56,674 nt of DNA from a virus. The stretch covers positions 1 through 56,674 of the IMG/VR virus record IMGVR_UViG_3300037826_000110, one strand, 5' to 3'. Positions 7,450-49,369 of this stretch are shown here, piece after piece (within the stretch, counting starts at the first letter, position 1; each line of letters begins with the position of its first letter). The notes beneath the pieces were generated by a model. It saw only the letters and a program-made list of their open reading frames with translations, was not told where the DNA came from and did no database searches. A program made the position numbers and the translations under genes.

Positions 7450-7465
7450 TATTTCCCAGGAAATA
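7450..7465. repeat. Dispersed palindrome, copy 1 of 9
   Basis: TATTTCCCAGGAAATA, centre CA, with partial ATT flanks. It lies just upstream of the ribosome binding site of the 44-aa gene and after the tail chaperone gene. Confidence 0.85.
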
Positions 7466-15052: not shown

Positions 15053-17161
15053 TCACAGCCAAACCCACCGCCCGTTCACTTCTTCCTCCAAGTGACAGCG
15101 GCAGCGTCCGTCGCACTCTGTGCCATACCCGGGCAAAGTTCCACCTGTCGTTGAAAGCATCGCACTCATAGAGGGGTAGGTACGATCTCCGAAGCGCAGG
15201 CAGGTAGGGCAATGCTCAGCCAGCGGGTCCCATTCCCAACGCACGGCGCCGTCCTCTTGGTCGTACTGCCGGCGCTGATAGATCCCGCTCCAAATCCCCC
15301 GCCACACGTGCCCCGCGTACAACTCCGCGCGGGAATAACTCTGTGTCGCCGCTTTCACCGCCTCGGTGACCTCAAAGATCACCTCTTCACGACGGTCCTG
15401 CTTGAGTAGAAGCATGATCGCCGCGATGCGCCCCTCCAGTGTGCCGGCAATATCTCCAAATAAGGACGGCCGCCCTTCGGGATTCTCACGGCGCAATTCC
15501 CCACCAGTCTCATAGCCGATCCACGAATCGGCCAACTGAATCTCTTGCTGTAGGGCCATCAGTTGCTCCGGTCCCCCGGAGGGCTTACCGAAGCCCATCC
15601 AGAAGGCGGCCGCGATGTCCAGCAGGGACTTTTCGCGGAAGAGCAGCAACCCGGCCAGGATCAAGTCATCCAGCGTCTCACGTACCTGGGTTGCCGTCGC
15701 GTCCTCGCCCAGATCGGCGACGGTCTCGGCGGTCTCGGCGGTCCAGGTCTCGATATTCTCACGTTGGGCACTGGCATTTTCCTCCGCCAGTGCCTCGTAC
15801 TCTTTTGGGCGCTGGGCGGGGGGCGGGTGCTGGCCGTCGGCAAAGTGGAGCAAATTATTTCCTGGGAAATAATGGGCCGCTTGCGGTTCCTCCTCCTCGG
15901 CGACCTCTTCTTCGTCTTGCACCGGCTCCGGGCGCTCCAAAGCCTCCTCCGGGGGCTCCGGCATTCCCGGAATTAGTGAGCGCAGGAAGGCTTCTGTGCG
16001 CATGTCGGACGTGAGCAAGCGCGCGCTTGTCAGCGTGCCAATGTATTGCGCAATCTGCGTCAGGTCCAAACTGCGCGGGGAGGAGTGGCGCAGCTCGGGT
16101 AGAGCCGTCAGACCGGGGAAGTCATTGTAGCGGAAAAGATACGGGATGGCGTGACGGTTGAACTGCCCGGCGATATTATCCAGATACGCCTCTACGGAGA
16201 GCACAAAGGCGTCCAACAGTGTCTCGGCCAGGGCCTGGGTCCCTACGGAACGCAAGCCCAGGAGGAGAAACTGCGCTAAGATAGCGCGTGCCATCTCGGA
16301 GTCCTTGCGCATGATAGTGTTGCTCATGGTGGTATCGACGTTACCCTCCGGGCCGCCGAGATCCAGATCCCAACCCGAGGGCATCACCGCGCCCATCAGC
16401 TTGTCATTGTAGATGTTCTCTACCAGGCCCTCAGCCTTGGCCTCGTCGGAGTCCTCGCCATCCTCCGTGCGGGTGGTCGCGGTTTCTGGCAACGTGACGC
16501 GGGGGAACCCGGCCCAGCGGCGATACAGGCCGATGCCCTCCACCTGCTCCAGGCGACGCTTGTATTGCCAGGGACGCACGGCCGGGCGGTAAATGCTCAC
16601 GCCTTCGGGATCGTCACCCTCTCGCGAGGTGCGGAAGAGCACGCTGCGCTCCAGCGGGATCAGCACCGGCGCGCCATCCAGGCGGTTTTGCCACATTCCC
16701 AGCAGGTCGCCGTCGGTATCGTATTGCCAGCGGTTGAGCGTCTGTTGCGGTCGCAGGGCGATTTTGCGATACCCAACGCGGCCGTCGTCGAACTTGGACT
16801 GTGACGGCCGGCGGCGCTTGAGTACCATCTCAAAGTACGCCCAACCAAACGGAAACATCAAGCACACATCCGAGATTAGATCTGAGAATGACAGGCTCAT
16901 ATCATTGAATGCCGACCAAGCAAACTCTGCCGCCTCGCGGTCCACGTCCTCCTCGCCCCCGGCCTCGCAGTGCCAAGAGACCTTCCGCACCATCAAAGAG
17001 AGCGTCAGGTACATCGCCGCCGCGGTCGGATCGGTGCGGCGCATTTCGTCATATTTGCGGATACCGTTTAGGCCCCGTAACGCAGGATCGGATTCGACGA
17101 GTAGTGAATCCCCCCACTGGGACCGTCCGGTCACGCCTAATTGCTTAAATGCACTGGGCAT
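15053..17161 (-). CDS. Portal protein fused to Mu F-like head morphogenesis domain
   Basis: ATG 17161 (MPSAFKQLG) has AAGGGGGATGAT upstream; a TTG nine codons earlier is less likely. The 702-aa product has a Mu gp29/DUF935-type portal region (residues ~1-420) and an acidic Pro/Glu linker. The C-terminal domain ends with HCPTCLRFG and GYGTECDGRCRCHL, the Cys/His signature of Mu F-like minor head proteins. One copy of the dispersed palindrome lies inside the linker and encodes HYFPGNN. The gene follows TerL, the usual order. Confidence 0.9.
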   Translation of the reverse strand: MPSAFKQLGVTGRSQWGDSLLVESDPALRGLNGIRKYDEMRRTDPTAAAMYLTLSLMVRKVSWHCEAGGEEDVDREAAEFAWSAFNDMSLSFSDLISDVCLMFPFGWAYFEMVLKRRRPSQSKFDDGRVGYRKIALRPQQTLNRWQYDTDGDLLGMWQNRLDGAPVLIPLERSVLFRTSREGDDPEGVSIYRPAVRPWQYKRRLEQVEGIGLYRRWAGFPRVTLPETATTRTEDGEDSDEAKAEGLVENIYNDKLMGAVMPSGWDLDLGGPEGNVDTTMSNTIMRKDSEMARAILAQFLLLGLRSVGTQALAETLLDAFVLSVEAYLDNIAGQFNRHAIPYLFRYNDFPGLTALPELRHSSPRSLDLTQIAQYIGTLTSARLLTSDMRTEAFLRSLIPGMPEPPEEALERPEPVQDEEEVAEEEEPQAAHYFPGNNLLHFADGQHPPPAQRPKEYEALAEENASAQRENIETWTAETAETVADLGEDATATQVRETLDDLILAGLLLFREKSLLDIAAAFWMGFGKPSGGPEQLMALQQEIQLADSWIGYETGGELRRENPEGRPSLFGDIAGTLEGRIAAIMLLLKQDRREEVIFEVTEAVKAATQSYSRAELYAGHVWRGIWSGIYQRRQYDQEDGAVRWEWDPLAEHCPTCLRFGDRTYPSMSAMLSTTGGTLPGYGTECDGRCRCHLEEEVNGRWVWL
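15856..15871. repeat. Dispersed palindrome, copy 3 of 9 (inside portal gene)
   Basis: TATTTCCTGGGAAATA, centre TG, flanked by ATT/AAT. This is the only copy well inside a coding region; it falls in the unstructured linker, where its encoded residues would be tolerated. Confidence 0.85.
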
Positions 17162-19210: not shown

Positions 19211-19948
19211 TCATGAGACGATCATAACCCTCTGCGTGCGCTTGACACGAATGAATAGATTCAGTCCCTTCTTGCTGCGGCGGATTTCTAGATGCTTACC
19301 CCATTTACTCTTGAGATAAGCTAGCTCGCGCTCGTTACGTTCACCGGAGCGCATGTGCGCGTTCCCTCCGGTGTTGTTAAAGCGCTGATGCATTATGGCG
19401 CAACGCTCGTCCACAAGCACGCAACGGTATTTTAGGAGTGCTTGGAGACAATAGTCGATATCCGCGCGCAGCTTCAACGAGGTGTCGTAGCGCAGCTCGC
19501 GTCCAATAATTCCAATCGCGCCCCCGACCCAGTTGTTAAGGGAAAATGGGTTCTGGGGGTGAAACTTGCGTACATCGCCACTGTGCTGTGAGAAACCAAA
19601 CACACAGGTCCCGAGGCCCCTGGCGATCCGGGCCGCGTTCTCAACCATTTGCAAAGCTACGTCAGGATCGACGACAGTCGCGGCGGCGGTGGTGCGTCCG
19701 GCGTTCATGCGCAGGTGGCTGACGTCGTCATCGACCATAAAGACGGTCTCCTCTGTGATATTATCCAGGATCCACTGTCGCAGGGGACCAATCCCCGCCA
19801 CGCTCGACGGGTGCGTGATAATTTCTGCATCCAGGACGGCATAGTCCTCCGCTTCGGCCTCATCTACGCACACGGCGGCCGAGGGGAACAGCTCAAGCGC
19901 CTTCCCACATAACGCTACTCTTCGTCGACTGGGGATGATGATGCGCAT
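19211..19948 (-). CDS. GT-A glycosyltransferase-like protein (TAGT-like)
   Basis: ATG 19948 (MRIIIPSRRRVALCGKAL) follows GGAGG by 10 bases and gives 245 aa. It has the nucleotide-sugar binding pattern of GT-A enzymes: an N-terminal IIIPSRRR strand, then RQWILDNITEETVFMVDDDVSHL with the DxD metal motif. A C-terminal domain holds KLRADIDYCLQALL. This resembles phage TET-associated glycosyltransferases that decorate modified DNA bases, which are often found beside ParB-like genes, as here. No TET or other base hydroxylase was seen, so the substrate could also be protein. Confidence 0.55.
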   Translation of the reverse strand: MRIIIPSRRRVALCGKALELFPSAAVCVDEAEAEDYAVLDAEIITHPSSVAGIGPLRQWILDNITEETVFMVDDDVSHLRMNAGRTTAAATVVDPDVALQMVENAARIARGLGTCVFGFSQHSGDVRKFHPQNPFSLNNWVGGAIGIIGRELRYDTSLKLRADIDYCLQALLKYRCVLVDERCAIMHQRFNNTGGNAHMRSGERNERELAYLKSKWGKHLEIRRSKKGLNLFIRVKRTQRVMIVS

Positions 19949-20670
19949 TGCTGTAAGACCTCCAAAAAGCGCGTGCCGTCCATCACGCGACATAACCCGA
20001 CTTTCCTCCGCAGATTGCCTTTGCTGGATTTATACGAAAAGGCACGCTCCCCGATGCCCAGTACCTCGATAGCCCGTGCCCAGTCCCAGGTGGTGCGAAA
20101 GACCAACATCACATAGTCGTAATGCTCGAAGGGTTGCAGTCCCATTTCGGGGATAGTAGCGTCGTCCGCTTCCTCAGCGATGGCCTGCTCCTCCGCGCTC
20201 AGCGCCTCGTACATCAGTTGATCAACCTCGCGCTGCTGGAAAAAGGCCACGATGTCCAGGCCCTCCTCGATATCAGCCGCGATCTGCCCGGCGTCCCAGG
20301 CTAGGTTGAGCTCGGAGGTGCGGTTATCGGCGTAGGCCAGGCTACGCGCTACCCCGCCGTCCTCCTCCAGATCCAGATCCTCACGCTGATGAACGACGAG
20401 GCCGTCGCCAGGCGTGCGCACGACGTAGATGGGCATGCCACCGAGGTCGCGTACCGTCTCCACGGTCTTGTTGCCAGAGACGACGCGCCCCTTGCGATCT
20501 GTCAGCACGGAACGCCCCGGGCCATAGCGGGCCAGGCTTTCACGCAAGGCCCACTGTCCACGACTGGTTCCCAGATTCGCATTGTGCTCATCGGAGTGCA
20601 AGTCGTCTAGCGAGGAGATCTCGGCGATCTCCTCTTCTAACGCTGTGACAAAGTCTTGTTCGTCGCTCAC
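19915..20670 (-). CDS. ParB/Srx-fold protein, phage type
   Basis: A 251-aa protein starting at GTG 20670 with GGAGG 8 bases upstream. The N-terminal domain (SLDDLHSDEHNANLGTSRG, then DRKGRVVSGNKTVETVRDLG, then NRTSELN) has the ParB-like fold pattern but lacks the GERRxRA CTP-binding box of true partition proteins. Such proteins act as nucleases or nucleotide-binding factors in phages. It overlaps the glycosyltransferase-like gene by 34 bases and is the first gene after leader L2. Confidence 0.65.
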   Translation of the reverse strand: MSDEQDFVTALEEEIAEISSLDDLHSDEHNANLGTSRGQWALRESLARYGPGRSVLTDRKGRVVSGNKTVETVRDLGGMPIYVVRTPGDGLVVHQREDLDLEEDGGVARSLAYADNRTSELNLAWDAGQIAADIEEGLDIVAFFQQREVDQLMYEALSAEEQAIAEEADDATIPEMGLQPFEHYDYVMLVFRTTWDWARAIEVLGIGERAFSYKSSKGNLRRKVGLCRVMDGTRFLEVLQQCASSSPVDEE

Positions 20671-23815: not shown

Positions 23816-24715
23816 CTACTGATAGGGGCACTCGCCCGGGATCAGGGGGCTAGGACCATTGGGGAAGGACACGATCTTGTGCTGCAATAGTCCGCGATAG
23901 ATCGTCCCCGCTATCCTTGCGGCCTCATCTTCGCCCGCGTCCACCAGATCCTTGATGTAGCGCTCCATCGCGCTGGCTACCGAGCGGGCCTTGCGCATCG
24001 AAGGAAGCTCGTCATCCACCGGAATCACCCGGTCCGGTCGCGCTTCCTCCTCCGCAGCGCGCACATCCTGGACCTTGGTCATAAAGGTGGCCATATCGAA
24101 CATCGCTTCCTGCGCCTGCTCTTCCAACAATCTCGCGCAGAGCTTGCGAAACTCTTTCAGGCGCGGGGTATCCACCTCCGCCAGATAACGCAGAGCAATG
24201 CGCTGCCGATTGGTATCCAGGTCGCGAAGCGCATACGCATATTTGATGCCCATCTGCCCGTCTTTGACTAATTTCTGAGCCTCGGGCACCGTATCCAAAA
24301 GCGCCAGTCGCAAGCGCACCCGCTGAGGACTCACGTTCGCAATCTTGGCGACCTGTTTGGCGTCCCAGCCAAATTTCTCCATCCGTTTTTGGTAGGCGCG
24401 CGCTTCCTCAATCGGATTCAGTTCGTTGCGTTGCACATTCTCCAAAAGCATGACGGAAGAGGCTTGCTGATCCGAAAGCGTGCGCACCAAGGCCGGAATG
24501 GTCTCGCGCTCCAGGAGGCCAAAGGCCCGCCAACGCCGTTCACCGGCTACCACCTGAAAGCGCTCCCCCACCGGTCGCAAGGTGATGGGCTGCGCGAGGC
24601 CGTGCTGCTTGATGCTGGCCGCCAGTTCCTGCAGGCTCTCTGTATCAAAGTCCTGGCGATCATTATCGCCGGGGTCAATTAGGACCATCCGTATATCCTG
24701 TATCTGCTCTTGCAT
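23816..24715 (-). CDS. parB: ParB/Spo0J-family partition-type protein
   Basis: I choose ATG 24715 (MQEQIQDIRMVLIDPG) because CACGGAGGTG precedes it; the longer frame would include ribozyme copy 3. The 299-aa product has the ParB CTP-binding box GERRWRA (58-64), the ENVQRNELNPIEEA segment (92-105) and a helix-turn-helix (WDAKQVAKIANVSPQRVRLR). True ParB clamps load on ~16-bp palindromes (parS) and spread. No ParA was found, so it may work with the ParM/ParR set, in gene control, or through the nine dispersed palindromes. Confidence 0.85.
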   Translation of the reverse strand: MQEQIQDIRMVLIDPGDNDRQDFDTESLQELAASIKQHGLAQPITLRPVGERFQVVAGERRWRAFGLLERETIPALVRTLSDQQASSVMLLENVQRNELNPIEEARAYQKRMEKFGWDAKQVAKIANVSPQRVRLRLALLDTVPEAQKLVKDGQMGIKYAYALRDLDTNRQRIALRYLAEVDTPRLKEFRKLCARLLEEQAQEAMFDMATFMTKVQDVRAAEEEARPDRVIPVDDELPSMRKARSVASAMERYIKDLVDAGEDEAARIAGTIYRGLLQHKIVSFPNGPSPLIPGECPYQ

Positions 24716-24737
24716 TCTCTCACACCTCCGTGGTTTA

Positions 24738-24811
24738 TGATCTGCCTTATCAATAATCGGGCGATCAATCCCGATTAGACGCCGGGGACTCCCGGCGTTT
24801 CGGCTATAACT
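24738..24811 (-). ncRNA. Type II hammerhead ribozyme-like RNA, copy 3 (54-aa gene / ParB junction)
   Basis: GCC, GAAA, stem III ACGCCGGG/CCCGGCGU, GUC (24780-24778), stem I UAAUCGGG/CCCGAUUA, UUGAUAA, GGC. Here loop I has UGAUC and the 3' tail has GAUCA: both sides of the pseudoknot changed together relative to the other copies (UGACC/GGUCA). Predicted cut is between 24778 and 24777. Confidence 0.8.
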
Positions 24812-24968
24812 CATGGCGTTGCGCACGTCCAAAAGCGCGCAATTCGTAGTATCCGATCACACATCCGCCCACCTCGATAGTGAAACGCTGCGCATCGCAA
24901 TACCACGCATAATCCTCAGCATCACGCACATCCTCAAAATACACGCCTTCCACATTATACAATTCCAT
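24804..24968 (-). CDS. Unknown 54-aa protein
   Basis: ATG 24968 with CACGGAGGTGTAAGA upstream, the same context as its neighbours. The 54-aa product begins MELYNVEGVYFEDVRDAEDY, is acidic with a CVIGYYELRAFG strand, and ends at a TAG inside the 5' edge of ribozyme-like element 3. No family is recognised. Confidence 0.65.
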   Translation of the reverse strand: MELYNVEGVYFEDVRDAEDYAWYCDAQRFTIEVGGCVIGYYELRAFGRAQRHEL

Positions 24969-29277: not shown

Positions 29278-30036
29278 TTAAGTTGTTATCCCAATACTTC
29301 GCGCACTGCCCGCCATCAAATCCAGATACGTCGCGTAGATATCCAGGTCGTGCGACATCACCAAGCGATACACGTACTGCGCGGCATACGTAGCCACCGC
29401 CTGATTGATCATCAAGCTCTGCGCATCCCGTATAGTCAGCTCCGCGCAGGACTCGGCCTCCGTCGCTGGCTGATCGGGAACCAAGAGCTCCGGATGCTGC
29501 ACGGTGGGGAGGGGAAGATCCAGACAGTGCCCGGCCTCGATGCTGGGCAATTTGCTGTTGGTCGTGTTCCCCAGTAGGACCTGACCGCTGGCCTCGTGGT
29601 TACCGCAGTCCAACCACCAGACGAGCCGCGAGGAATCGACGATGGCCTCGTGAATGGCCTTCCGGGCGGCAGCGTTATCCACCGCGCCCACGACCAGCGT
29701 GAACTGGTGACGCTTGGCGGTGATAAAGTCTGACTGGAATTTCTGCGGACGACACTGAATCCGCAGGCCGAAAGCCGTGCTGTACCGGCGTGTCAATGCG
29801 ACGGCCTTGTTACGTCCTATCTCGGCGGGGGCGAAGTTCTGCCGTCCGATGTTCTTTTCCTCCACGACGTCGGGATCGCAGAAGGACAACCGAACGTCTT
29901 TGCCCTGCGCGTGATAGGCCAGGCGCGCTAGGTGCAAAGCCAGGAATGAGCCGGTCCCTCCGCAACCCACCAGGAGGATATTGTACGCGGCGGGATCCCC
30001 GACTAGGACAGGGTAGCGTCTCTCCGGCCTATCCAC
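29278..30036 (-). CDS. ThiF/E1-like activating enzyme (PRTRC ThiF-like)
   Basis: GTG 30036 has GGGAGG 7 bases upstream and gives 252 aa. It has an adenylation Rossmann motif (ILLVGCGGTGSFLALHLARL), FCDPDVVEEKNIGRQNF and DCGNHEASGQVLLGN. The end is SCAELTIRDAQSLMINQAVA, close to the pattern of PRTRC-system ThiF proteins. E1-like enzymes adenylate the C-terminus of a ubiquitin-like protein. Neighbouring genes encode JAB, E2-like and ubiquitin-like proteins, so a full conjugation pathway is likely. Confidence 0.8.
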   Translation of the reverse strand: MDRPERRYPVLVGDPAAYNILLVGCGGTGSFLALHLARLAYHAQGKDVRLSFCDPDVVEEKNIGRQNFAPAEIGRNKAVALTRRYSTAFGLRIQCRPQKFQSDFITAKRHQFTLVVGAVDNAAARKAIHEAIVDSSRLVWWLDCGNHEASGQVLLGNTTNSKLPSIEAGHCLDLPLPTVQHPELLVPDQPATEAESCAELTIRDAQSLMINQAVATYAAQYVYRLVMSHDLDIYATYLDLMAGSARSIGITT

Positions 30037-30256
30037 GCCGCGCCTCCCGCTCGGCCTGCAATCGGGCACGCTCCTGATCTACTACGCGCCATAGGTCGCG
30101 GACCTCTTTCTGCAATGCGCGCGCCTGCACGGCCAACTCGTCGAAACGCTGGCGTATCTCATCATCGCGACCGCCAAGGCGAACGACGGAGCGAATGTAA
30201 TAATCCAACGTACCCAAATCTATGTACGGATACGTGTTGTCATCTGGGTTTTGCAT
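30029..30256 (-). CDS. Small coiled-coil protein
   Basis: A 75-aa protein. After a short N-terminal part (YPYIDLGTLDYYIRSVV) it is a continuous charged coiled coil to the end. The stop overlaps the ThiF start by 8 bases. It could be an adaptor for the E1/JAB proteins; no known family. Confidence 0.55.
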   Translation of the reverse strand: MQNPDDNTYPYIDLGTLDYYIRSVVRLGGRDDEIRQRFDELAVQARALQKEVRDLWRVVDQERARLQAEREARRG

Positions 30257-30264
30257 GGTTCCTC

Positions 30265-30882
30265 CTAAAACGGAATAGTGCGATTATGGACATCCTCAAA
30301 TGGCCATGCCCCGGTGAACAGTGTCTCAATAGCTACATTACCGTAGTCACCGTAGACACCCACCCGCAGACACATCTGCGGGCGCTCGTCGAAGATCCGC
30401 CCGATCACACCATAGAAACGCAAGCCTTGCTCGTCGCGGGTATCCTCGCTGGAAAAGAAAACGTTCATCTGGTGATGGCTGTGGATGTCGGCGATGATGT
30501 CCGCGTCATCGCCTCCCTCGTAGGTCAGGCGCGCACTGCCGGCCTGTTGCGACGGTCGCCACACGCTGACCAAGCCGTCACGCAGCACGAGGTGATACAG
30601 AACCTCACGCGGCCCCTCGCGGGCCACGCTGCGCGCGTTGACCAGGATCTGACGCAAGAGAATGTTTTGGATGGGGCTGAAGTCTAAGTCCACAAACGGC
30701 TCTAGCTTCGGCAGTCCAGCCACGCGACACGCCGCGACCTGAATGCAGGCGGTGAAGTGCCGCGCGCGGGCTAACTTGAAGATGCCATTGCCCGCGAGCA
30801 CGTAGGCGTAGGCTTTCCCCGACGACAAGCTCGGGGTATGGCCATTATGCATCAGATAATCTACGGGATTCGGTAACATCAT
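30265..30882 (-). CDS. JAB/JAMM isopeptidase (PRTRC protein A-like)
   Basis: About 205 aa, starting in the stop of the E2-like gene (ATGATG overlap); an ATG three codons earlier lacks a ribosome binding site. The JAMM motif is complete: HSHHQMNVFFSSED (H-x-H-x7-S-x2-D), followed by DTRDEQGLRFYGVIG, as in PRTRC system protein A. In eukaryotes and bacterial ubiquitin-like systems such peptidases trim or remove ubiquitin-like proteins; maturing the Ub-MazG fusion is a natural inference. Confidence 0.8.
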   Translation of the reverse strand: MMLPNPVDYLMHNGHTPSLSSGKAYAYVLAGNGIFKLARARHFTACIQVAACRVAGLPKLEPFVDLDFSPIQNILLRQILVNARSVAREGPREVLYHLVLRDGLVSVWRPSQQAGSARLTYEGGDDADIIADIHSHHQMNVFFSSEDTRDEQGLRFYGVIGRIFDERPQMCLRVGVYGDYGNVAIETLFTGAWPFEDVHNRTIPF

Positions 30883-31583
30883 GCCTCCCATAAGTGCCGA
30901 AGGGCCAGGTTACTATGTCTCAGGTCTTCAAGGGGATATTCATCCGCACCGACCACGACAGGATCGCGCCACATCGCGATGATGCTCTCCTCGTATTTCT
31001 TGGATTTGCCGTCTTCCAAGTCGTGATTGAACTGGCTAGCGAAGAACATTTCCGCAGCCTCACAAATCGTTTCCACCGTGCAAGCCGGGAACGGGACATC
31101 CCCCTGGCACACACGTCCGTCGCGCCAGATGTTTGGCGCGGGGAAATAGTACAGTGGTTCCCGTCCGGCTGCGGGGTAACGCCGGACCGCGAAGATCCTG
31201 TACGTGCGACCCTGCCCTACGAAAACGGCCGGTGGGAAGGGTACACGCATGTCCACCACTTCACCCTCATGGTACAGCTTCACCGTGCGCACCTGGGGAG
31301 GGCGATATATACCCAAACGCGGTTGTGCCCCCAGATCACAAAACAGGCAATTGCGGGGCAGCAACCCCGACACTATCGGCAGCCCGGCCATCGAGGCCGC
31401 CAGAGCATCCGGCGATACCTCGTAGCACTGCGCGACGTGCCCATGCTCAAAGCGCGTCATCACGATGGACTCGTCGTACAGGTCCAGGCGCATGCGCAGC
31501 GCCTGGCGTTGCTCTACGTCCACCCCGGTCCCTGCGAGACCCAAGGCAGATAGGTGTTCTATTTTTCCATTTTCTGGTTCCAT
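30879..31583 (-). CDS. E2-like protein (PRTRC protein B/Prok-E2_D-like)
   Basis: A 234-aa protein with GGAGTAAATAAA before ATG 31583. The middle and end match PRTRC protein B: PFPPAVFVGQGRTYRIFAV, YYFPAPNIWRDGRVCQGDVPFP and AEMFFASQFNHDL. The Cys in GRVCQG is the candidate catalytic cysteine of this E2-like family. Together with the JAB and ThiF genes it forms a ubiquitin-type relay. Confidence 0.75.
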   Translation of the reverse strand: MEPENGKIEHLSALGLAGTGVDVEQRQALRMRLDLYDESIVMTRFEHGHVAQCYEVSPDALAASMAGLPIVSGLLPRNCLFCDLGAQPRLGIYRPPQVRTVKLYHEGEVVDMRVPFPPAVFVGQGRTYRIFAVRRYPAAGREPLYYFPAPNIWRDGRVCQGDVPFPACTVETICEAAEMFFASQFNHDLEDGKSKKYEESIIAMWRDPVVVGADEYPLEDLRHSNLALRHLWEA

Positions 31584-31588
31584 TTTAT

Positions 31589-32473
31589 TTACTCCTCATA
31601 CGTTCGCTCTATCTGATACCGTCTGACGTCGTCAACCCACTCTTGCTCCACCAACGGCGGGGCGGGGGTACGATTGCGATAGTCCTCCTCCAGGCCGTCG
31701 AAGTAGCGCACCGCGTCCTCCACAGCGCGCCGAGGCTGTTCGTCGAAATACTCTTGCAGATCGCGACGTACAGGGACCCAGTGCTTGATCTCGCTGTAAG
31801 AGGTGGCCAAAAAGAGGATGTCGTGCAGATTGAATCTCGGCATCCCATAGTTCATACTGCCATACTCCTCAAAGTAGTAATCGCAGTAGTCAAACCACGG
31901 GTTGCCGGTTTCCTTGCGCACACACTGATACACCACGGCCAGGGCGCTGAAGGGCTGCGGCAGGGCCTCCAAATGCTCCACTGCCCATACCGCGTCGCTG
32001 GGCCAGGTGTACTGTCGCGGGGGGCGGATACCATGTGCCCCCCACCACTCTATGAGTCGCTCGCTGTACGAATCTACCCCCTCACAGACGTGGTTAATAA
32101 CGACGGCGATCATTAGGCAGGCCAGGGTGTCGAAGTTGCTGAAGTCCTCGACTTCCCACTCGATGCCCCACGCTGCGAAGGGAATCTCGTGCCAACCCTC
32201 CACCAGTGTCGGATGGTCGAACTCGCGCTCGTAGACCAGGTAATCGGCATACAAGCCGTTAAGCGGGAAGAACTCCTGATTGATACGAACCAGAAGCTCC
32301 TGCTCGGCAGCCTGCAAGCCCCCCAACACCGGGAGCTCATCGCCGAATAGCTCGCGCCACAGCTCGGCCATATTATGATACTCCTTATAGCCCCCCAGAC
32401 GGTCAGCGATCGCCCCGTAGGACGGCAGGCGATAGCGAGTCAAAGCCTGGACGACGGCTTGCAGAGAAATCAT
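31589..32473 (-). CDS. Unknown 294-aa protein of the ubiquitin-like cassette
   Basis: ATG 32473 overlaps the previous stop as ATGA. The product is acidic, Trp/Tyr-rich and mostly helical (YADYLVYEREFDHPTLVEGW, WPSDAVWAVEHLEALP). No motif is recognised. It sits in tight linkage just before the E2-like gene, which suggests a partner or target-binding role in the same pathway. Confidence 0.6.
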   Translation of the reverse strand: MISLQAVVQALTRYRLPSYGAIADRLGGYKEYHNMAELWRELFGDELPVLGGLQAAEQELLVRINQEFFPLNGLYADYLVYEREFDHPTLVEGWHEIPFAAWGIEWEVEDFSNFDTLACLMIAVVINHVCEGVDSYSERLIEWWGAHGIRPPRQYTWPSDAVWAVEHLEALPQPFSALAVVYQCVRKETGNPWFDYCDYYFEEYGSMNYGMPRFNLHDILFLATSYSEIKHWVPVRRDLQEYFDEQPRRAVEDAVRYFDGLEEDYRNRTPAPPLVEQEWVDDVRRYQIERTYEE

Positions 32474-32682
32474 GCTTCGCTGTCCAGGTCGAATAGCTCT
32501 GGCTGGCCCTGCCGTCGCATGATCCAGGCTTTCGGTATCGGTTGCGTGTGCCGACACTGTGGGAAGTTAGGGCAGCCCAAAAACTGAGAGTGGTTGTGGC
32601 GGTTGGTTTTGATGAGCAAGGGGACGTTGCACTCTGGGCAACGGAGTGCGGTGGGCTGGTTGTTCTCAAATAGCGGTTCCAT
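32470..32682 (-). CDS. Topoisomerase-type zinc ribbon protein
   Basis: ATG 32682 (MEPLFENNQPTALRCPEC) with GGAGAGGGCG upstream gives 70 aa. It has one zf-C4 topoisomerase-type ribbon, CPECNVPLLIKTNRHN then FLGCPNFPQCRHTQPIP, followed by a short tail. In topoisomerase I this module binds single-stranded DNA; here it stands alone. Confidence 0.7.
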   Translation of the reverse strand: MEPLFENNQPTALRCPECNVPLLIKTNRHNHSQFLGCPNFPQCRHTQPIPKAWIMRRQGQPELFDLDSEA

Positions 32683-33145
32683 CGCCCTCTCCAAAATGCT
32701 CGGCGTGCAGGCGTGACACATCCTGCTCCAAATTGTAACGCAGATCCTCGATGCGCCGCTGACACTCATAGTCCGCATCATCGACCACGCCGGCGCGCTC
32801 CTCCAGGATTGCATACAGATTTAGGTTATAAAGCCGGCGCAAGTCCTCGTACTCTCTGAGATACAAGAGTACGTCCAACGCCTTCCCCAAAAGGGCTGAC
32901 GCATCGACCGCCAGATGCTCCACATTCGTACCGGTTCCTAGATTGGCCAAAGCCTGCATGTCCGTGATCACCTGGTTGATCACGGCCTCCGGTTCAGCCT
33001 CGGTGCTGGCGATCACCGGACCCAACGCTTCAATGGCGTGCCGTGCCATCTGCCCAATCTCTGGCGGTGGGTTGGTGGCCATAGTGATCACGGCCATTTT
33101 CTGGCTGGCCTGGCCCACAAGGTCTGAGAGCCTATGCCGATCCAT
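32666..33145 (-). CDS. Unknown 159-aa helical protein
   Basis: Acidic, all-helical protein (EIGQMARHAIEALGPVIAST, LYLREYEDLRRLYNLN), overlapping both neighbours by 14-17 bases. No known domain or membrane segment; part of the ubiquitin-like cassette operon. Confidence 0.55.
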   Translation of the reverse strand: MDRHRLSDLVGQASQKMAVITMATNPPPEIGQMARHAIEALGPVIASTEAEPEAVINQVITDMQALANLGTGTNVEHLAVDASALLGKALDVLLYLREYEDLRRLYNLNLYAILEERAGVVDDADYECQRRIEDLRYNLEQDVSRLHAEHFGEGDGTAI

Positions 33146-33434
33146 TCAGCACCCCCAGAGCCTTCAGTAATAGCGCCTCGGCCTCGATCACGTTGGTCTC
33201 GATACACGTACCCTCGCCGTGAATCTCCATCGCCGCGAGGCCGTTCAACGCCTCGCGTACCGCAACGGTGATCTCGCCGTCGCTCATCGACGCCCGCCCG
33301 CCATTCAACAGTGGGGATAGTGACGCGGTTACGTCCGCCGCCATGCCCCACAGAATATAGCTGGGACTCACATGCAGCAGTGGCCCCACCCTTAAATTTG
33401 CTCTGATCAACAATGCCTCTACTTGTTGCTCCAT
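33132..33434 (-). CDS. Unknown 100-aa helical protein
   Basis: A 100-aa protein (MEQQVEALLIRANLRVG) overlapping the next gene by 14 bases; GGAGAACACT precedes ATG 33434. The C-terminal half (AVREALNGLAAMEIH, EAEALLLKALGVLNG) resembles a stretch of its 159-aa neighbour (VDASALLGKALDVL), so the two may be distant paralogues. Confidence 0.5.
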   Translation of the reverse strand: MEQQVEALLIRANLRVGPLLHVSPSYILWGMAADVTASLSPLLNGGRASMSDGEITVAVREALNGLAAMEIHGEGTCIETNVIEAEALLLKALGVLNGSA

Positions 33435-33443
33435 AGTGTTCTC

Positions 33444-33677
33444 CTAAAATCCTTCTGGCACCCGCTTACCGGGCACCGGGTCCAAAGCTTCCAGACGCTC
33501 ACGAAACTTCTCCACGGCTTCAATATGTGCGTAGAGGTCCAGGAGCGCCCGTTCTATCTCCGCCTGGCGCTGGGCGACATCCGCCCCGGCCTCCAGGTCC
33601 AGCAGGAGCCGGACGGCGGCGAGCTCCAACGGGGGAACCTCCGCCATCCGCTCCGCAAGCTCACGCGCCGTCGTCAT
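33444..33677 (-). CDS. Small helical protein
   Basis: ATG 33677 (MTTARELAERMAEVPPLE) lies inside the end of the Ub-MazG gene, so it is probably translationally coupled; the longer upstream frame is only that gene's shadow. The 77-aa product is helical and charged (RQAEIERALLDLYAHIEAVEKF). No known family. Confidence 0.5.
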   Translation of the reverse strand: MTTARELAERMAEVPPLELAAVRLLLDLEAGADVAQRQAEIERALLDLYAHIEAVEKFRERLEALDPVPGKRVPEGF

Positions 33678-34113
33678 CCGGGATAACCGGGCCGTGCTGC
33701 TCGAGGGCCGCGACGCAGAGAGCGGCCATTTTGACAATGCGATACCGTGCTCTGCTAAGTTCTTCAGCGCCAATATCTTGTGAAGCATGCCCCCATTCCT
33801 CAGCGATATAATCCAGCCACACGCTGGGACCATGGCGTTTTCCGTCAATCTCACCGTTTAACGTCATGCGTTCTTGCACGTTGCAGATTGCCGCTAGCAC
33901 ATTGGCGCGGCTGACCAACGCACCCTTGGTCCCCGCACGCTTGACGAAGGTAACCACCTTGTTACCTTCGTCGTCCTCGCTCTCCTCGACGCTGGCGTTA
34001 GCCAGCTCCGGAAAGTATTGGCGCAGGTGATCCTGCATCTGCTGCGTTGTAAGCTCGTCTTCCTCGTCCCGATATTCATAGTCCCCGTGGGGATATTTGT
34101 AAATCGTTGCCAT
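33661..34113 (-). CDS. Ubiquitin-like (PRTRC protein C-like) domain fused to MazG-like domain
   Basis: A 150-aa protein with GGAGGAATTGAGAG upstream. Residues 1-64 match the beta-grasp Prok_Ub family of PRTRC protein C (QYFPELANASVEESEDD, VVTFVKRAGTKG). In that family GTKG is normally the C-terminus. Here ~86 residues follow (VLAAICNVQERMTLNGE, PSVWLDYIAEEWGHASQDI, KMAALCVAALE), resembling a MazG-type NTP pyrophosphohydrolase domain with EEWGH in place of EExGE. Cleavage after GTKG by the JAB peptidase would free a ubiquitin-like protein; that step is inferred. Confidence 0.7.
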   Translation of the reverse strand: MATIYKYPHGDYEYRDEEDELTTQQMQDHLRQYFPELANASVEESEDDEGNKVVTFVKRAGTKGALVSRANVLAAICNVQERMTLNGEIDGKRHGPSVWLDYIAEEWGHASQDIGAEELSRARYRIVKMAALCVAALEQHGPVIPDDDGA

Positions 34114-34144
34114 CTCTCAATTCCTCCGTTGTGTGTTATGCGGA

Positions 34145-35614
34145 TCACGCCGGGGCGCGATCTTCCTCAGATTCCTGCTCAAATATATCAATGCCTATTT
34201 CCTCGCGGATCATTCTAGCCATCACCGAGGCCAGGTGCCCTAGGTCACTCTTGTCTATGGCCCCGGGCCGTCCGGGCTTTCCCACCGAGACGGTGACCGC
34301 CAGATCCTCCGGGCTTTCCCCATTCTGGGGTACGTCGATGCGGGCCGTGAGAATAATTTGCGGCTTGGGGGGAGGCGGAGGGGGCACCGCTGGCCTTGAT
34401 GATGCCGGCGGCGGCGATTGGGGCTCACTCAGCGTCCCCACCGCAACCCCACACCGCGCGTTATTCGCAATCCCCGCATCCTGCGCCGCGTCCACCGGCG
34501 CGCTGGCTATGTGCTCCGGAGCCGATAACTCATGCTCTTCCGGCTGCGGATTGCCGGCGCGTTCCCAGCAATCGGGGCAGATGTTGATGCCCGCGAAGCG
34601 GTACCAATCGCGCTCTTTGTCGTTGGCGACCTCGGTACCGCAGGCGCGGCAGCGGGTCCAGAACGTCGGGCGGTGCGTTTTCCACCCGGCGTGCTGCTCG
34701 TACATGCGCTTGGCCAACGCTGGTCCTTCGACCTGCTTCTCGAAGGTCGTGCTCTTGAGCTCAAAGCACGTCCGCCAAGAGCAGCGCAACTCCCGACCGA
34801 TCTTTGTCGCATACCGGCATCCCGCGCAGGCATGCATGATGCCGTTGCCGGGGACCTGGGGTTTCATCTCTGGCTCCCAGTCCATGGCCCACGGTGCACC
34901 ATCGAGGGAGGCCGTCTCCGTCTCGATGTGGCGCTTGACGGCCATCTCCACGTCGACCACGCTGCGCTCATGGCCCAGGAGACGCATGTACGTGGGCTTT
35001 TCCTCACCAAGGGCCACCAGGGGTAGCAGTGCCCGGGCGTGCCGTTCGCCCAGACCCCGCGCCACCTCATCCTGGATGAAGTCGGGGAGTTGCAGGAGGC
35101 GCAGTTTGTTGGCTACGGTGCTCTGACTGAGGCCCCAGCGGTTGCCGATCTCCGCCTGGGTCCAGCCAAATTTTTCCCCCGCCATCTGCATCATGCGCGC
35201 CTGCTCGATAGCGTTGTTGTCCTCGCGCTCTTGATTTTCCTGGAAGGCGATGTCGGCCATGGCCTCGTCGTCCAGTGCCTTGAGGTCGACGGGGAACGTG
35301 GCGTATGTGGTGTCGCTCTGCGCGCTGAAGGTCTCGTGAATCAGTCGGAAGGCGCGCAGACGCCGATGGCCGGCGGCCAGTTGGATCTCCAGCCCTTCAC
35401 GACGGCCGTCCTCGATCCGCGCCACGGCCTCGGCGGGATCCAGGACCTCGCCGTTCAATAGCGCCCGCGCCGGGGGGACGTGGATTAGGCCGCTGGTTTC
35501 GGGAAGCTCGTGGCGCATTTGTAAAATTGAGTTCTCCAGGTCGGCGGTGTAGTACTTCATCCGCGCCTGGAATGGATTGTCACTGATCATCTTATTTGCT
35601 ACTCTGGTAATCAT
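34145..35614 (-). CDS. ParB-family protein with zinc-binding C-terminus (PRTRC ParB-like)
   Basis: A 489-aa protein with GGAGGCAAAACCG before ATG 35614. It has a ParB CTPase-type box GHRRLRA (82-88), ENQEREDNNAIEQARMM and a helix-turn-helix (WTQAEIGNRWGLSQSTVANKL). A Cys-rich part follows (CAGCRYATKIGRELRC, then CRACGTEVAND, then CPDCWERAG), probably two zinc sites, and a Pro-rich region. ParB next to ThiF/E2/JAB/Ub-like genes defines PRTRC cassettes. A palindrome copy lies 23 bases upstream. Confidence 0.8.
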   Translation of the reverse strand: MITRVANKMISDNPFQARMKYYTADLENSILQMRHELPETSGLIHVPPARALLNGEVLDPAEAVARIEDGRREGLEIQLAAGHRRLRAFRLIHETFSAQSDTTYATFPVDLKALDDEAMADIAFQENQEREDNNAIEQARMMQMAGEKFGWTQAEIGNRWGLSQSTVANKLRLLQLPDFIQDEVARGLGERHARALLPLVALGEEKPTYMRLLGHERSVVDVEMAVKRHIETETASLDGAPWAMDWEPEMKPQVPGNGIMHACAGCRYATKIGRELRCSWRTCFELKSTTFEKQVEGPALAKRMYEQHAGWKTHRPTFWTRCRACGTEVANDKERDWYRFAGINICPDCWERAGNPQPEEHELSAPEHIASAPVDAAQDAGIANNARCGVAVGTLSEPQSPPPASSRPAVPPPPPPKPQIILTARIDVPQNGESPEDLAVTVSVGKPGRPGAIDKSDLGHLASVMARMIREEIGIDIFEQESEEDRAPA

Positions 35615-39694: not shown

Positions 39695-41143
39695 ATGAAA
39701 ATCACAGAAGCAACACCGCAGCAAAGAAACAACGCTCCCTTTGTGACGCATATGACTGCCAGGAACATCGGCAAGGGGTACGCCGAGACCCTAATACTAA
39801 TCGCCTACTATCTCCCGGACGGCGACGTCCTAGAGGGAACTAGCGAAGAATTCGGTGCAGTCTTCGACATTCACGAACGCAGCTTCAGGAATCATGTCAA
39901 GGCCCTATCACGAGCCGGATGCCTACTTTACACGAAACCAGAATACGGGCTATACAAAATCATAAGAATTTCACAGACAGAAGAGGAACTAAACACCCTC
40001 GTCGATTGCTGGAATTTCATTCCAGATGAGATCAAAAAGCGCGATGCGTTGGATTTTGTCACGTCTGCTTTCCTGTCGAAATGGAAAGAATTTTCCGAAA
40101 GTGGGGGGGAATGGAAAGAATTTTCCACCTTAGAGGAAGAGGCACCGGAAGCAAAACGGAAAGAATTTTCCGAAACTCCGCAAAATGGAAGAAATTTTCC
40201 AAGTTCAGACGAAGAGGAGCAAGGCGAGGAATGGAAAGAATTTTCCGAAAGTGGGGGAGAATGGAAAGAATTTTCCAACTCGGATGGCGAAAGACGGAAA
40301 GAATTTTCCGTAACCCCCATTGAACGGAAAAAAATTTCCGAAAGTGGGGGGAAACGGAAAGAATTTTCCGAAAGCGATCCCCCTGTTGTTGTTATTAATC
40401 ATGATCATGTCTTTGAGAGACAATTTTCTAAAGATAAAAAACAACAACAGCAAGCATCTGAGCCACAAAACGGCGATTCAGCGCAGGGGTTTGCGTCGAA
40501 CGATTTTTCCGAACGTCAAAAGCTTGCCTTGAATGCTCTGCGTTCCGTGCGTGTGGGTCGCAATGCACAGCGTGAATTCATACGCGACCATGATCCGCAG
40601 CGCATCCTAGACGTCGTTGCGGCGGCGAAGGTTGACGCAACCGTCAAAAACAAAGCGGGGTATGTGTGCAAGGCCCTCCGCGAAGGGTGGGAGATCGCGG
40701 TGCCGAAATCCGAGCCCGAGAAACGTCAGGAAAAATGGGCCGGATGGGAACAACAAAACGCCCAAGCCACCGCGCGCCTGCATCAAGCGGTCGCCGCTGC
40801 CGCCGAGCAATCCGGTAACGGCAACGGGGGCGAATCTGCCAAGATCTGGCGCGGCGTCCTGGGTGAACTGGAGCTCCAGATGACCCGCGCGACCTTCGAC
40901 ACCTGGCTGCGGGATACAAACTGCCTGGGTCGGGAGGATAACGGCGACGGTGAGACGCTGATCATCGGCGTGAAGAACGGCTACGCCGTGGAATGGCTAG
41001 AACATCGGCTGTACACCGTCATCCAACGCACACTCCACCGCGTCGTGGGGCAGCACACAGAGGCGCGCTTCGTTGTCTGGGATGAGGAAGCGCAGGAAGT
41101 CACAGAGCCGGCCTTGGAGCCGGTCACAGGAGGAGTAGGGTGA
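39695..41143 (+). CDS. Replication initiator: winged helix, iteron-encoding region, DnaA domain I-like C-terminus
   Basis: A 482-aa protein. Residues ~20-100 form a winged helix (AETLILIAYYLPDGDVLEG, FDIHERSFRNHVKALSRAG) as in phage/plasmid initiators. Residues ~128-226 are a repetitive WKEFSESGGE-type linker whose DNA is a set of iterons. Residues ~380-465 resemble DnaA domain I (KIWRGVLGELELQMTRATFD, LIIGVKNGYAVEWLEHRLY). DnaA domain I recruits the replicative helicase, so this protein probably binds its own gene and loads host DnaB. No phage polymerase or helicase was found in the genome. Confidence 0.75.
   Translation: MKITEATPQQRNNAPFVTHMTARNIGKGYAETLILIAYYLPDGDVLEGTSEEFGAVFDIHERSFRNHVKALSRAGCLLYTKPEYGLYKIIRISQTEEELNTLVDCWNFIPDEIKKRDALDFVTSAFLSKWKEFSESGGEWKEFSTLEEEAPEAKRKEFSETPQNGRNFPSSDEEEQGEEWKEFSESGGEWKEFSNSDGERRKEFSVTPIERKKISESGGKRKEFSESDPPVVVINHDHVFERQFSKDKKQQQQASEPQNGDSAQGFASNDFSERQKLALNALRSVRVGRNAQREFIRDHDPQRILDVVAAAKVDATVKNKAGYVCKALREGWEIAVPKSEPEKRQEKWAGWEQQNAQATARLHQAVAAAAEQSGNGNGGESAKIWRGVLGELELQMTRATFDTWLRDTNCLGREDNGDGETLIIGVKNGYAVEWLEHRLYTVIQRTLHRVVGQHTEARFVVWDEEAQEVTEPALEPVTGGVG
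40083..40369 (+). repeat. Nine iterons inside the rep gene (candidate replication origin)
   Basis: Copies of GGAAAGAATTTTCC begin at 40083, 40113, 40158, 40187 (variant), 40233, 40263, 40296, 40326 (variant) and 40356. Spacing is mostly 29-33 bases or about 45, roughly whole helical turns. An AT-rich stretch follows (40384-40455). Iterons within the initiator gene followed by AT-rich DNA mirror the lambda ori inside gene O. Confidence 0.75.
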
Positions 41144-41394: not shown

Positions 41395-41754
41395 ATGCCC
41401 CAGACCCCGCAACGCCGCGCGCGCTATCCCGCCGACTGGCGCATCATCGCCACCAGCGTCAAGGACCAAGCCGCCTGGTGCTGCGAGCACTGCGGACGGC
41501 CCCACGATCCTCTCAACGGTCACCCGCTCACCGTCCACCACCTGGACAACACGCCAGAGAACAACCAGTGGTACAACCTGGTGGCGTTGTGCCTGCCGTG
41601 CCATGCCAAGATCGCGGCGCATTACACACCGGGGCAGCGGACGTTTGATTTCTACGAGCCCCCGGCATGGATGGCCGAGCGGGGTCTGGTACGCGGGGCG
41701 CGGCAGATGGCGTTTTGGTTTTATGGACCTGGGGAATTATTTCCCAGGAAATAA
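41395..41754 (+). CDS. HNH endonuclease
   Basis: A 119-aa protein with WCCEHCGRP, LTVHHLDNTPENNQWYNLV and ALCLPCHAKI, the complete HNH signature with its structural zinc cysteines. The end (LFPRK) is encoded by a palindrome copy. HNH enzymes often lie near phage terminase genes; here it sits in the plasmid operon, so a homing or plasmid-processing nick is also possible. Confidence 0.85.
   Translation: MPQTPQRRARYPADWRIIATSVKDQAAWCCEHCGRPHDPLNGHPLTVHHLDNTPENNQWYNLVALCLPCHAKIAAHYTPGQRTFDFYEPPAWMAERGLVRGARQMAFWFYGPGELFPRK
41738..41753. repeat. Dispersed palindrome, copy 7 of 9
   Basis: TATTTCCCAGGAAATA, centre CA, with ATT/AAT flanks on both sides. It overlaps the last codons of the HNH gene, 25 bases before the ParM start. 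Confidence 0.85.
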
Positions 41755-41777
41755 TCACACAACACGGAGGAATTGAG

Positions 41778-42749
41778 ATGCAATTAGGCATAGACTTAGG
41801 TTACAACGAAGTAAAATCGGTATCGGACAAGGAACACCAGCGCTTCCCAGCGGTCATAGGCACGCCAGAGGAAGCCTCGTTCTCACTGAACGGCGATCAG
41901 AGCATGATCTTGCTCAAGCCGGCGCACGTCTCTCTGGGGATGGGGGCCGTGATGCACTCGCGTTTCAATAATCGCCGCGAGTCACGGAACTGGATTGAGA
42001 CGGCCGACTATCACCACCTGTTCTGTGGCGCGCTCACACAGCACACCACAGCCACACAGATCAGTGTGGACCTGGTGACCGGCTTACCCATCGCCTTCTA
42101 CGGCGATAAGGGACGTCTGGCCGGGATCTTGACCGGAGAGCACAGCGTCCAGGTCCAGGGGCGCACGGCGCAGCTCTTTAGGGTCAATCACGTGCGCGTG
42201 ATCCCGCAGCCGTTCGGAAGCTTGCTCAGCGTAGTTCTGGATGGCCGGGGGCAGATCGTGGACAATGACCTGGCCCTATCGCGGGTGGGCGTGATCGACG
42301 TCGGAGGCAAGACCACCAACCTCCTCAGCGTCCACAAGCTGACGGAGCTGGACCGTGAGTCCACCAGCGTCAGCGCTGGGGGGTGGCGCTTAGTGCGTGC
42401 AGTTCGGCAGTGGCTGGCGGCCAACAAGCCCGGCCTCGACGAAATGCGCGATCACGAACTGGCTGAGGCAATCAAGGTGCAGCGCATTAACTGCGCTGGC
42501 GAGCCGGTGAGCGAATTTCCGAGCATCGTCAGCGGCTACGCCGATAGCCTGGCTCAAGAAATCATCGCCACCGCCACACAACTGTGGAACGGTGGGGCGC
42601 TCCTGGACAAGATCCTGGTCACCGGGGGCGGAGCCCTATTACTGGGGGAGGCTATCCGCACCCGCTGGCCACGGGCGGAGATTGTTCCGTCGCCGGTATA
42701 CGCGAATGCCATCGGCTATCACCGCCTGGCTAAGCGGTTGTACGGGTAG
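41778..42749 (+). CDS. parM: ParM/Alp-type actin-like ATPase
   Basis: ATG 41778 (MQLGIDLGYNEVKSV) has GGAGG 7 bases upstream; the longer frame is rejected. The 323-aa product has phosphate 1 (GIDLGYNEVKS), phosphate 2 (GVIDVGGKTTNLLSV) and the adenosine motif (ILVTGGGALLLGEAI) of actin-fold ATPases. ParM filaments push plasmid copies apart by binding ParR-parC complexes. The candidate parC repeats and ParR follow directly. Confidence 0.85.
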   Translation: MQLGIDLGYNEVKSVSDKEHQRFPAVIGTPEEASFSLNGDQSMILLKPAHVSLGMGAVMHSRFNNRRESRNWIETADYHHLFCGALTQHTTATQISVDLVTGLPIAFYGDKGRLAGILTGEHSVQVQGRTAQLFRVNHVRVIPQPFGSLLSVVLDGRGQIVDNDLALSRVGVIDVGGKTTNLLSVHKLTELDRESTSVSAGGWRLVRAVRQWLAANKPGLDEMRDHELAEAIKVQRINCAGEPVSEFPSIVSGYADSLAQEIIATATQLWNGGALLDKILVTGGGALLLGEAIRTRWPRAEIVPSPVYANAIGYHRLAKRLYG

Positions 42750-42758
42750 CATGGCTAC

Positions 42759-42815
42759 GCTATCCGTTATTAAAAATTAATAACGGATAGCCGCCAGTAT
42801 TAAAAATTAATAACG
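42759..42815. repeat. Candidate parC centromere/operator repeats
   Basis: GCTATCCGTTATTAA (42759-42773), spacer AAA and TTAATAACGGATAGC form a perfect 15-base inverted repeat. A second copy of its core, TATTAAAAATTAATAACG, ends exactly at the ATG of the ParR-like gene. Repeats next to a ribbon-helix-helix gene are the usual ParR binding site. Confidence 0.75.
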
Positions 42816-49354: not shown

Positions 49355-49369
49355 TATTTCCTGGGAATA
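49355..49369. repeat. Dispersed palindrome, copy 9 of 9 (one base shorter)
   Basis: TATTTCCTGGGAATA, centre TG, lacking one A in the right half. It lies just past the stop of the last late gene (49387). Confidence 0.75.

Follow-up and report, generated by a model that had tools for sequence, protein, structure and literature searches.

Can a phage start its replication from within the gene of its own initiator? The question is raised by the IMG/VR virus record IMGVR_UViG_3300037826_000110, analysed here over its full 56,674 bases (hereafter the window). Its first and last 127 bases are identical and the phage genome is therefore probably complete and circularly assembled; it encodes a terminase, a portal, a head protease and tail proteins. 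The original prediction placed a replication origin inside the initiator gene, here called rep, on the basis of nine near-identical units spaced by about 30 or 45 bases in its linker-coding part and followed by AT-rich DNA. The replication origin of this phage is very probably 40083-40510, where the initiator gene encodes the linker of its product, and it would work through Rep binding, melting of an AT-rich core and helicase recruitment by a DnaA domain I. Judged from the sequence, such an origin appears to be the best explanation for an initiator-type protein, confined palindromic units, an AT-rich element and a conserved layout.

The array agrees with its first description (Table 1). Nine palindromic units of the form GGAAA-NNNN-TTTCC, seven exact and two with two mismatches, succeed each other at spacings of 30, 45, 29, 46, 30, 33, 30 and 30 bases in the part of rep that encodes the linker between the Rep domains. 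The exact word GGAAAGAATTTTCC occurs seven times in forward and never in reverse orientation in the whole record, and the control word read backwards is absent. With up to three mismatches, the record holds 17 matches against 3.0 expected, a number reached by none of 100 shuffles, and 11 of them fall within 40083-40510; the close matches found outside rep at 15849, 28581 and 41731 overlap a different palindrome.

Table 1. Position of rep, its domains and its internal DNA elements in the window.
Feature	Position	Strand	Basis or remark
rep (initiator) gene, 482 aa	39695..41143	+	open frame; C-terminal DnaA_N; relatives with same domain order
Predicted winged-helix DNA-binding domain, residues 27-92	39773..39970	+	AlphaFold2 model of residues 1-128
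Unit 1	40083..40096	+	exact GGAAAGAATTTTCC
Unit 2	40113..40126	+	exact GGAAAGAATTTTCC
Unit 3	40158..40171	+	exact GGAAAGAATTTTCC
Unit 4	40187..40200	+	GGAAGAAATTTTCC, two mismatches; other reading frame (NGRNF)
Unit 5	40233..40246	+	exact GGAAAGAATTTTCC
Unit 6	40263..40276	+	exact GGAAAGAATTTTCC
Unit 7	40296..40309	+	exact GGAAAGAATTTTCC
Unit 8	40326..40339	+	GGAAAAAAATTTCC, two mismatches; half-sites GGAAA/TTTCC retained
Unit 9	40356..40369	+	exact GGAAAGAATTTTCC
Left triplet arm	40383..40393	+	CTGTTGTTGTT
AT-rich core, proposed melting region	40394..40439	+	46 nt, 24% G+C
Right triplet arm	40440..40450	+	AACAACAACAG
Weak tenth unit, far side of core	40497..40510	+	CGAACGATTTTTCC, 3 mismatches
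Predicted helical middle domain, residues 273-330	40511..40684	+	AlphaFold2, block-mean pLDDT 84-89 over 271-330
DnaA domain I (DnaA_N), C-terminal	40838..41104	+	Pfam PF11638 E 3e-7; PDB 4tps E 3e-9

The DnaA_N domain is the sole Pfam match of Rep at E values up to 0.1, and the same search detected neither an AAA+ ATPase nor a Bac_DnaA_C domain. The fold of this C-terminal domain matches 4tps_D (Z 16.3, rmsd 0.9 over 84 residues) and 60 of its 83 residues (72%) are identical to those of the chromosomal DnaA of an Anaerolineae MAG (L130); the C-terminus of Rep thus looks like a copied helicase-recruiting domain of its host. In DnaA domain I of Bacillus subtilis, T26, W27 and F49 are reported to be needed for DnaD binding (PMC10201431); the aligned residues of the window are T, W and Y, and the T-W of the helicase-recruiting surface is invariant. 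E21 and F46, described as binding DnaB in Escherichia coli (PMC5742627), align with T and Y of the window. The N-terminal domain matches nothing in the PDB by sequence. Its model has a block-mean pLDDT of 78-87 over residues 31-70 and matches winged helices, the best being 5trd_A with a Z of 9.6 (rmsd 2.0 over 64 residues), a score that differs little from those of unspecific matches; a winged helix is predicted there with moderate confidence.

As a single query, Rep (P0001) found no relative in viral contigs or phage records and, in plasmids, only matches to the C-terminal DnaA_N. Relatives were therefore reached via the terminase and via DnaA_N alignments. In the 21 genes collected, including that of the window, a linker and, before it, an N-terminal region precede DnaA domain I. 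The corresponding part of the gene contains repeats of another sequence, palindromic for the most part, in the majority of the relatives tested; diverged relatives keep the layout, while repeat sequence, reading frame and linker residues change. For 10 of the 21 Reps, the best DnaA outscored the best other Rep; because the 74 DnaA genes compared had been fetched by similarity to the domain of the window, repeated capture of host DnaA domain I by phage Reps is only suggested. When the N-terminal and middle domains were searched in 396 genomes of the class of L130, the 4 and 8 weak matches obtained (E 0.002-0.01) were judged to be chance among the ORFs inspected.

In a second phage architecture, DnaA domain I is N-terminal and is followed by a different domain (L111-L114, L117, L120, L121, L124-L129, L242, L246, L248). 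A gene of an Anaerolineae MAG (L152, 2597-4288) encodes an N-terminal region that may resemble phage O proteins, a poly-Thr run and, at the C-terminus, a DnaA domain I.

The AT-rich core and its inverted triplet arms

The 75 nt starting at 40383 have 29% G+C against 52% for rep and are the most AT-rich stretch of the gene, in keeping with the AT-rich DNA announced after the units. There, at 40383-40450, inverted triplet repeats of the form (GTT)n...(AAC)n enclose an AT core, an element that the initial feature list had missed together with the weak tenth unit at 40497 and the DnaA domain I. Folded as single-stranded DNA, it has a z of -3.1 (0 of 200 shuffles), eight elements of this type, that of the window included, range from -2.1 to -5.7, and two other stretches of the window give -1.8 and -0.4.

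To count as a triplet element, a stretch needed a stem of at least 8, a loop of 10-60, a period of three in its arms and a core whose G+C is lower than that of the gene by 0.12 or more. It is present in 10 of the 21 genes (0.56 expected from shuffles) and in none of 98 control genes, and with a stem of at least 9 in 8 of the 21 (0.14 expected), the criterion having been fixed after the first examples were seen and the 21 genes, the window's included, being relatives rather than independent samples; at the chosen cut-off, 11 of them lack it. The triplets found in relatives are GAT/ATC, TGT/ACA, GGTAGT/ACTACC, ATG/CAT, AGG/CCT and GAA/TTC. Repeated sites, with motifs chosen by eye, flank the core on both sides in 9 of 11 genes with a core, among which are L115, whose core is a non-triplet palindrome, and L254, which has 7-bp arms, neither belonging to the 10 above. 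Examples of such two-sided sites are AGTGCGGAAAATCGCACT in L227 and GCACAAAATGTGC in L257; the far-side copy of the window is weak.

Scans with the arms only provide a check that is less open to this post hoc criterion. Among 2.9 million viral contigs, the arms of the window were found in one other record, inside the initiator gene of L122; the window's own record may be excluded by design from such scans. The scan for GATGATGAT...ATCATCATC returned at least 120 stretches, from which 80 loci with 71 distinct cores were examined. Six of these 71 cores are at least 0.2 below their surroundings in G+C, the next highest value being 0.15, and all six lie within open frames; a 10-mer common to both sides was found for 5 of the 6, against 13 of the 65 others. 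Two of the corresponding genes have a C-terminal DnaA_N (L270 and L277, E 2e-11 and 2e-8), L271 shows a match to DUF1376 that stays under the cut-off, L275 and L333 weakly match helix-turn-helix-type families, and L319 has no match. As only L270 and L277 carry DnaA_N, the triplet element may exist independently of DnaA domain I. Arms of the same kind also occur in L116, L123 and L256. The mirrored triplet repeat is a compact searchable signature: used as a DNA query with no protein information, it pointed to initiator-type genes of other phages. It could offer origin prediction in metagenomic phages and a way to ask how far the structure of the DUE, rather than its sequence, is conserved.

With stems of 8-15 bp whose arms pair on the message strand too, the inverted repeat could act as an RNA hairpin, in translation or antisense control, and not as DNA. 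However, the length of its AT-rich loops (19-46 nt), its place between initiator-type sites and the variety of the triplets all favour an element that acts as DNA, and a role as RNA is unlikely. The units themselves could be operators by which Rep represses or times its own transcription, with the origin elsewhere. Palindromic sites of such size are in general often operators, and initiators commonly autoregulate. Nevertheless, the array lies 0.4-0.7 kb within the coding sequence and not on the promoter side, an AT-rich core with inverted triplets adjoins it, and the sites of relatives are found on both sides of the core; a purely regulatory role is quite unlikely. Autoregulation could coexist with origin function.

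A tentative joint reading, about which some doubt outweighs confidence, is that an AT core, inverted triplets and palindromic sites on both sides, within an initiator gene, constitute an undescribed origin module, common to phages whose initiators recognise unrelated sequences. The triplet would be free to change (GTT, GAT, AGG, AGT, GAA) while the arms stay complementary. Because only this complementarity would need keeping, the runs encoded in the linkers of triplet-arm genes (poly-Asp/poly-Ser, poly-Glu/poly-Ser, poly-Val/poly-Gln, Ser/Thr) would be the coding shadow of the DNA structure. The period of three may reflect a host AAA+ protein, for instance DnaA, that grips single-stranded DNA three bases at a time and could be brought in by the DnaA domain I of Rep. 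A weak negative is that no published description of an inverted-triplet origin was found in the open-access literature. The DnaA-trio is described as a repeated 3'-(G/A)AT-5' motif beside a DnaA box (PMC10797057); reading the arms as this fixed motif was rejected, their triplets varying among relatives (GTT, GAT, AGG, GGT/AGT, GAA).

Selection on the DNA or on the linker peptide

The original prediction also held that codon choice keeps the DNA repeats identical while residues vary (WKEFS, RKEFS), as expected from selection on DNA. Given the codon usage of the phage, AAA-GAA-TTT-TCC has a probability of 0.0125 per KEFS unit, and rep contains 225 repeated 9-mer pairs against 32 in synonymous-codon shuffles (0 of 1000). 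The codon constraint is thus found, but for the window alone it is also compatible with recent tandem duplication, because eight of the nine units are in one frame and the out-of-frame repeats (6 against 2.85 expected, 119 of 1000 shuffles) are not in significant excess. Furthermore, the W/R variation corresponds to a T/C position just outside the unit. Better arguments for selection at the DNA level are provided by the out-of-frame unit at 40187, whose frame shift is offset by the compensating spacings of 29 and 46, and by the relatives.

The synonymous-shuffle test covered 10 of the 21 Rep-type genes plus two otherwise unrelated initiators, L014 and L015. Seven of the 10 Reps of this architecture display a repeat excess at p 0.01 or better, L104 and L106 showing none at 0.01, whereas this is the case for 2 of 72 host dnaA genes (from a set of 74, two being skipped for ambiguous letters). 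Four of 18 genes in which DnaA_N is not C-terminal, and likewise 1 of 10 other ORFs of the window, reach 3 of 300 shuffles or fewer. Out-of-frame repeats are in excess at p 0.01 or better in L115, L122, L123 and L152, as well as in L014 and L015 (0 of 1000 shuffles), and copies of one motif stand in different frames in L115, L122, L123 and L228.

These data bear on the explanation in which the (W/R)KEFS peptide repeat is selected as a multivalent linker and the identity of the DNA results from recent tandem duplication. Besides the common frame of eight units, duplicated blocks of up to 28 nt in rep speak for it. Yet the nine copies share a pairwise identity of 0.94 within the unit against 0.43 and 0.39 in the 14-nt flanks, which have strongly diverged; unit 4 is read in another frame; the linker peptides of relatives differ while DNA repeats are kept, several in mixed frames; and none of the 1000 codon shuffles matches the gene. 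Tandem duplication combined with selection on the peptide could account for some of the identity, but as the cause of the array it is very unlikely.

Pairs of GGAAANAANTTTCC were found at 8 loci in viral contigs. In two initiator-like genes, L014 (6619-7458) and L015 (8991-9698), GGAAA...TTTCC words stand in mixed frames ahead of AT-rich DNA, and no DnaA_N domain was seen; we read them as putative internal origins, unrelated or distantly related, that use the same word. In a large phage, L010 (1788-1909 on the minus strand, at about 142.1-142.3 kb of a 180-kb record) has four GGAAAAAAATTTCC/GGAAAAAATTTTCC units within a very AT-rich stretch; built on the same class of words, this array is possibly an origin or a set of operators.

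Proposed mechanism and comparison with known systems

Units, core, arms, domain order and conservation are read from the DNA; for binding, melting, helicase recruitment and origin firing, the following scheme is proposed. Rep would bind the GGAAA-NNNN-TTTCC units via its N-terminal winged helix, probably as a dimer, and the Rep-loaded array would strain the AT-rich core and melt it. For the triplet arms on either side, three roles are conceivable: they could set the boundaries of the melted region, form hairpins after melting, or present single-stranded DNA with triplet spacing to an AAA+ protein. The cluster of C-terminal DnaA domain I copies would then recruit the host replicative helicase, either directly or via a host DnaD/DciA-type or DnaA partner, which would replace a phage loader; at oriC, several copies of DnaA domain I are thought to recruit the helicase (PMC5742627). 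The two-sided sites of relatives suggest that loading might occur in both directions. Rep would thus seem to plug into the host via a copy of the host's DnaA domain I and would dispense with a phage helicase loader. Of the ORFs of the window, the 40 submitted to Pfam, which are the larger ones, gave no match to a helicase, loader, primase or polymerase; a loader could hide in small or unscanned ORFs.

Origins inside initiator genes are known from few models (lambda, SPP1 and RepA_N plasmids), and the present locus would extend them to phages of uncultured Chloroflexota. The internal-origin logic is already known; what is new here is DnaA domain I as candidate recruiting module and the inverted-triplet core.

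In lambda, O acts together with the loader P. In lambda and Stx phages, the origin is described as lying mid-gene beside an AT-rich unwinding region; its iterons are imperfect inverted repeats containing an A-tract, and their number alters protein length (PMC7466680). The window likewise displays iterons and an AT-rich tract inside its initiator gene. However, Rep has no Pfam phage O match and ends in a DnaA domain I, no P-like gene was seen by Pfam, and there are 9-10 units and inverted triplet arms around the core. The parallel drawn with lambda O is right as an analogy of layout, with no Pfam homology behind it.

The RepA_N plasmids are at least as close in logic. In pSK41, a winged-helix N-terminal domain is reported to bind Rep boxes located centrally within rep, the ori-encoded central domain being a linker and a genus-specific C-terminal domain contacting the replisome (PMC5703833). 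The repeats of the window are also central and encode a linker, in the same three-part logic, but Rep lacks any PF06970 match at E up to 0.1, has more sites, and ends in DnaA domain I instead of a DnaG-binding domain. In SPP1, gp38 is described as binding direct repeats of oriL within gene 38, with an AT-rich DUE (PMC6316719); there too the initiator gene carries repeats and an AT-rich stretch, although SPP1 has a second origin, oriR, a loader, gp39, and a helicase, gp40, none of which was seen in the window. Unlike bacterial DnaA, Rep has neither the AAA+ domain III nor the DnaA-box-binding domain IV, and it carries domain I at the C-terminus, in one protein with an unrelated DNA-binding domain. 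Among Bacillota, uncharacterised DnaA_N proteins (NCBIfam PRK06672; WP_015256685.1 of Thermobacillus plasmid pTHECO01) also have DnaA_N near the C-terminus, preceded by another region, but neither a repeat array nor a strong inverted repeat occurs in the middle of the Thermobacillus gene.

Host and neighbouring elements of the phage

In a genome scan with the DnaA domain, the best 80 of 307 confirmed loci bear Chloroflexota-type titles, some of their genera being, we assume, members of Chloroflexota. The phage appears to be a virus of uncultured Chloroflexota-type bacteria, an assignment drawn only from DnaA-domain similarity since its terminase had no match in 12 Chloroflexota genomes. The G+C skew turns near 38 kb, where gene orientation also switches; being confounded with gene strand, it was rejected as independent support for an origin. 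The window contains no exact DnaA box, and its 11 one-mismatch boxes (7.2 expected) all lie away from rep.

A PRTRC-like cassette extends over 29278-35614 on the minus strand and includes the actin-like gene at 41667-42749 on the plus strand, downstream of rep, which corresponds to the D protein (PRTRC_D/ParM models). ThiF scores above its cut-off and the matches of proteins A, B, C, D and ParB lie below theirs; prokaryotic ubiquitin, E2 and JAB domains are also encoded. The cassette suggests a phage-plasmid lifestyle. That the array in rep is a centromere (parC/parS-like) for this ALP/ParM-type gene, about 1.3 kb downstream, or for a ParB is scarcely plausible: ParMRC systems are described as using iterated sites (PMC6669507), but relatives hold the array within rep whatever its sequence, and better partition candidates are the eight exact TATTTCCCAGGAAATA palindromes and the palindrome between the ALP gene and 42816.

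These eight copies of TATTTCCCAGGAAATA, against 0.16 expected, are located at 7450, 13374, 15856, 28572, 35637, 39114, 41738 and 45998, with a variant at 49355. The word is one base away from TATTTCCCGGGAAATA, given as the consensus of the Noc binding site (PMC7383237). Matches to the Noc model, under its cut-off, come from two ParB-like genes on the minus strand, at 23816-24832 (E 1e-39) and 34145-35614 (E 4e-26). A Noc-like ParB with dispersed sites would be unusual on a Chloroflexota-type phage. The strong palindrome CTATCCGTTATTAAAAATTAATAACGGATAG, with a second partial copy, occupies 42763-42815, between the actin-like gene and the next ORF, and is possibly a partition site or a terminator. 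Finally, 19211-19993 (minus) encodes a TET-associated glycosyltransferase domain (PF20691, E 7e-13), which points to possible DNA base modification by the phage.
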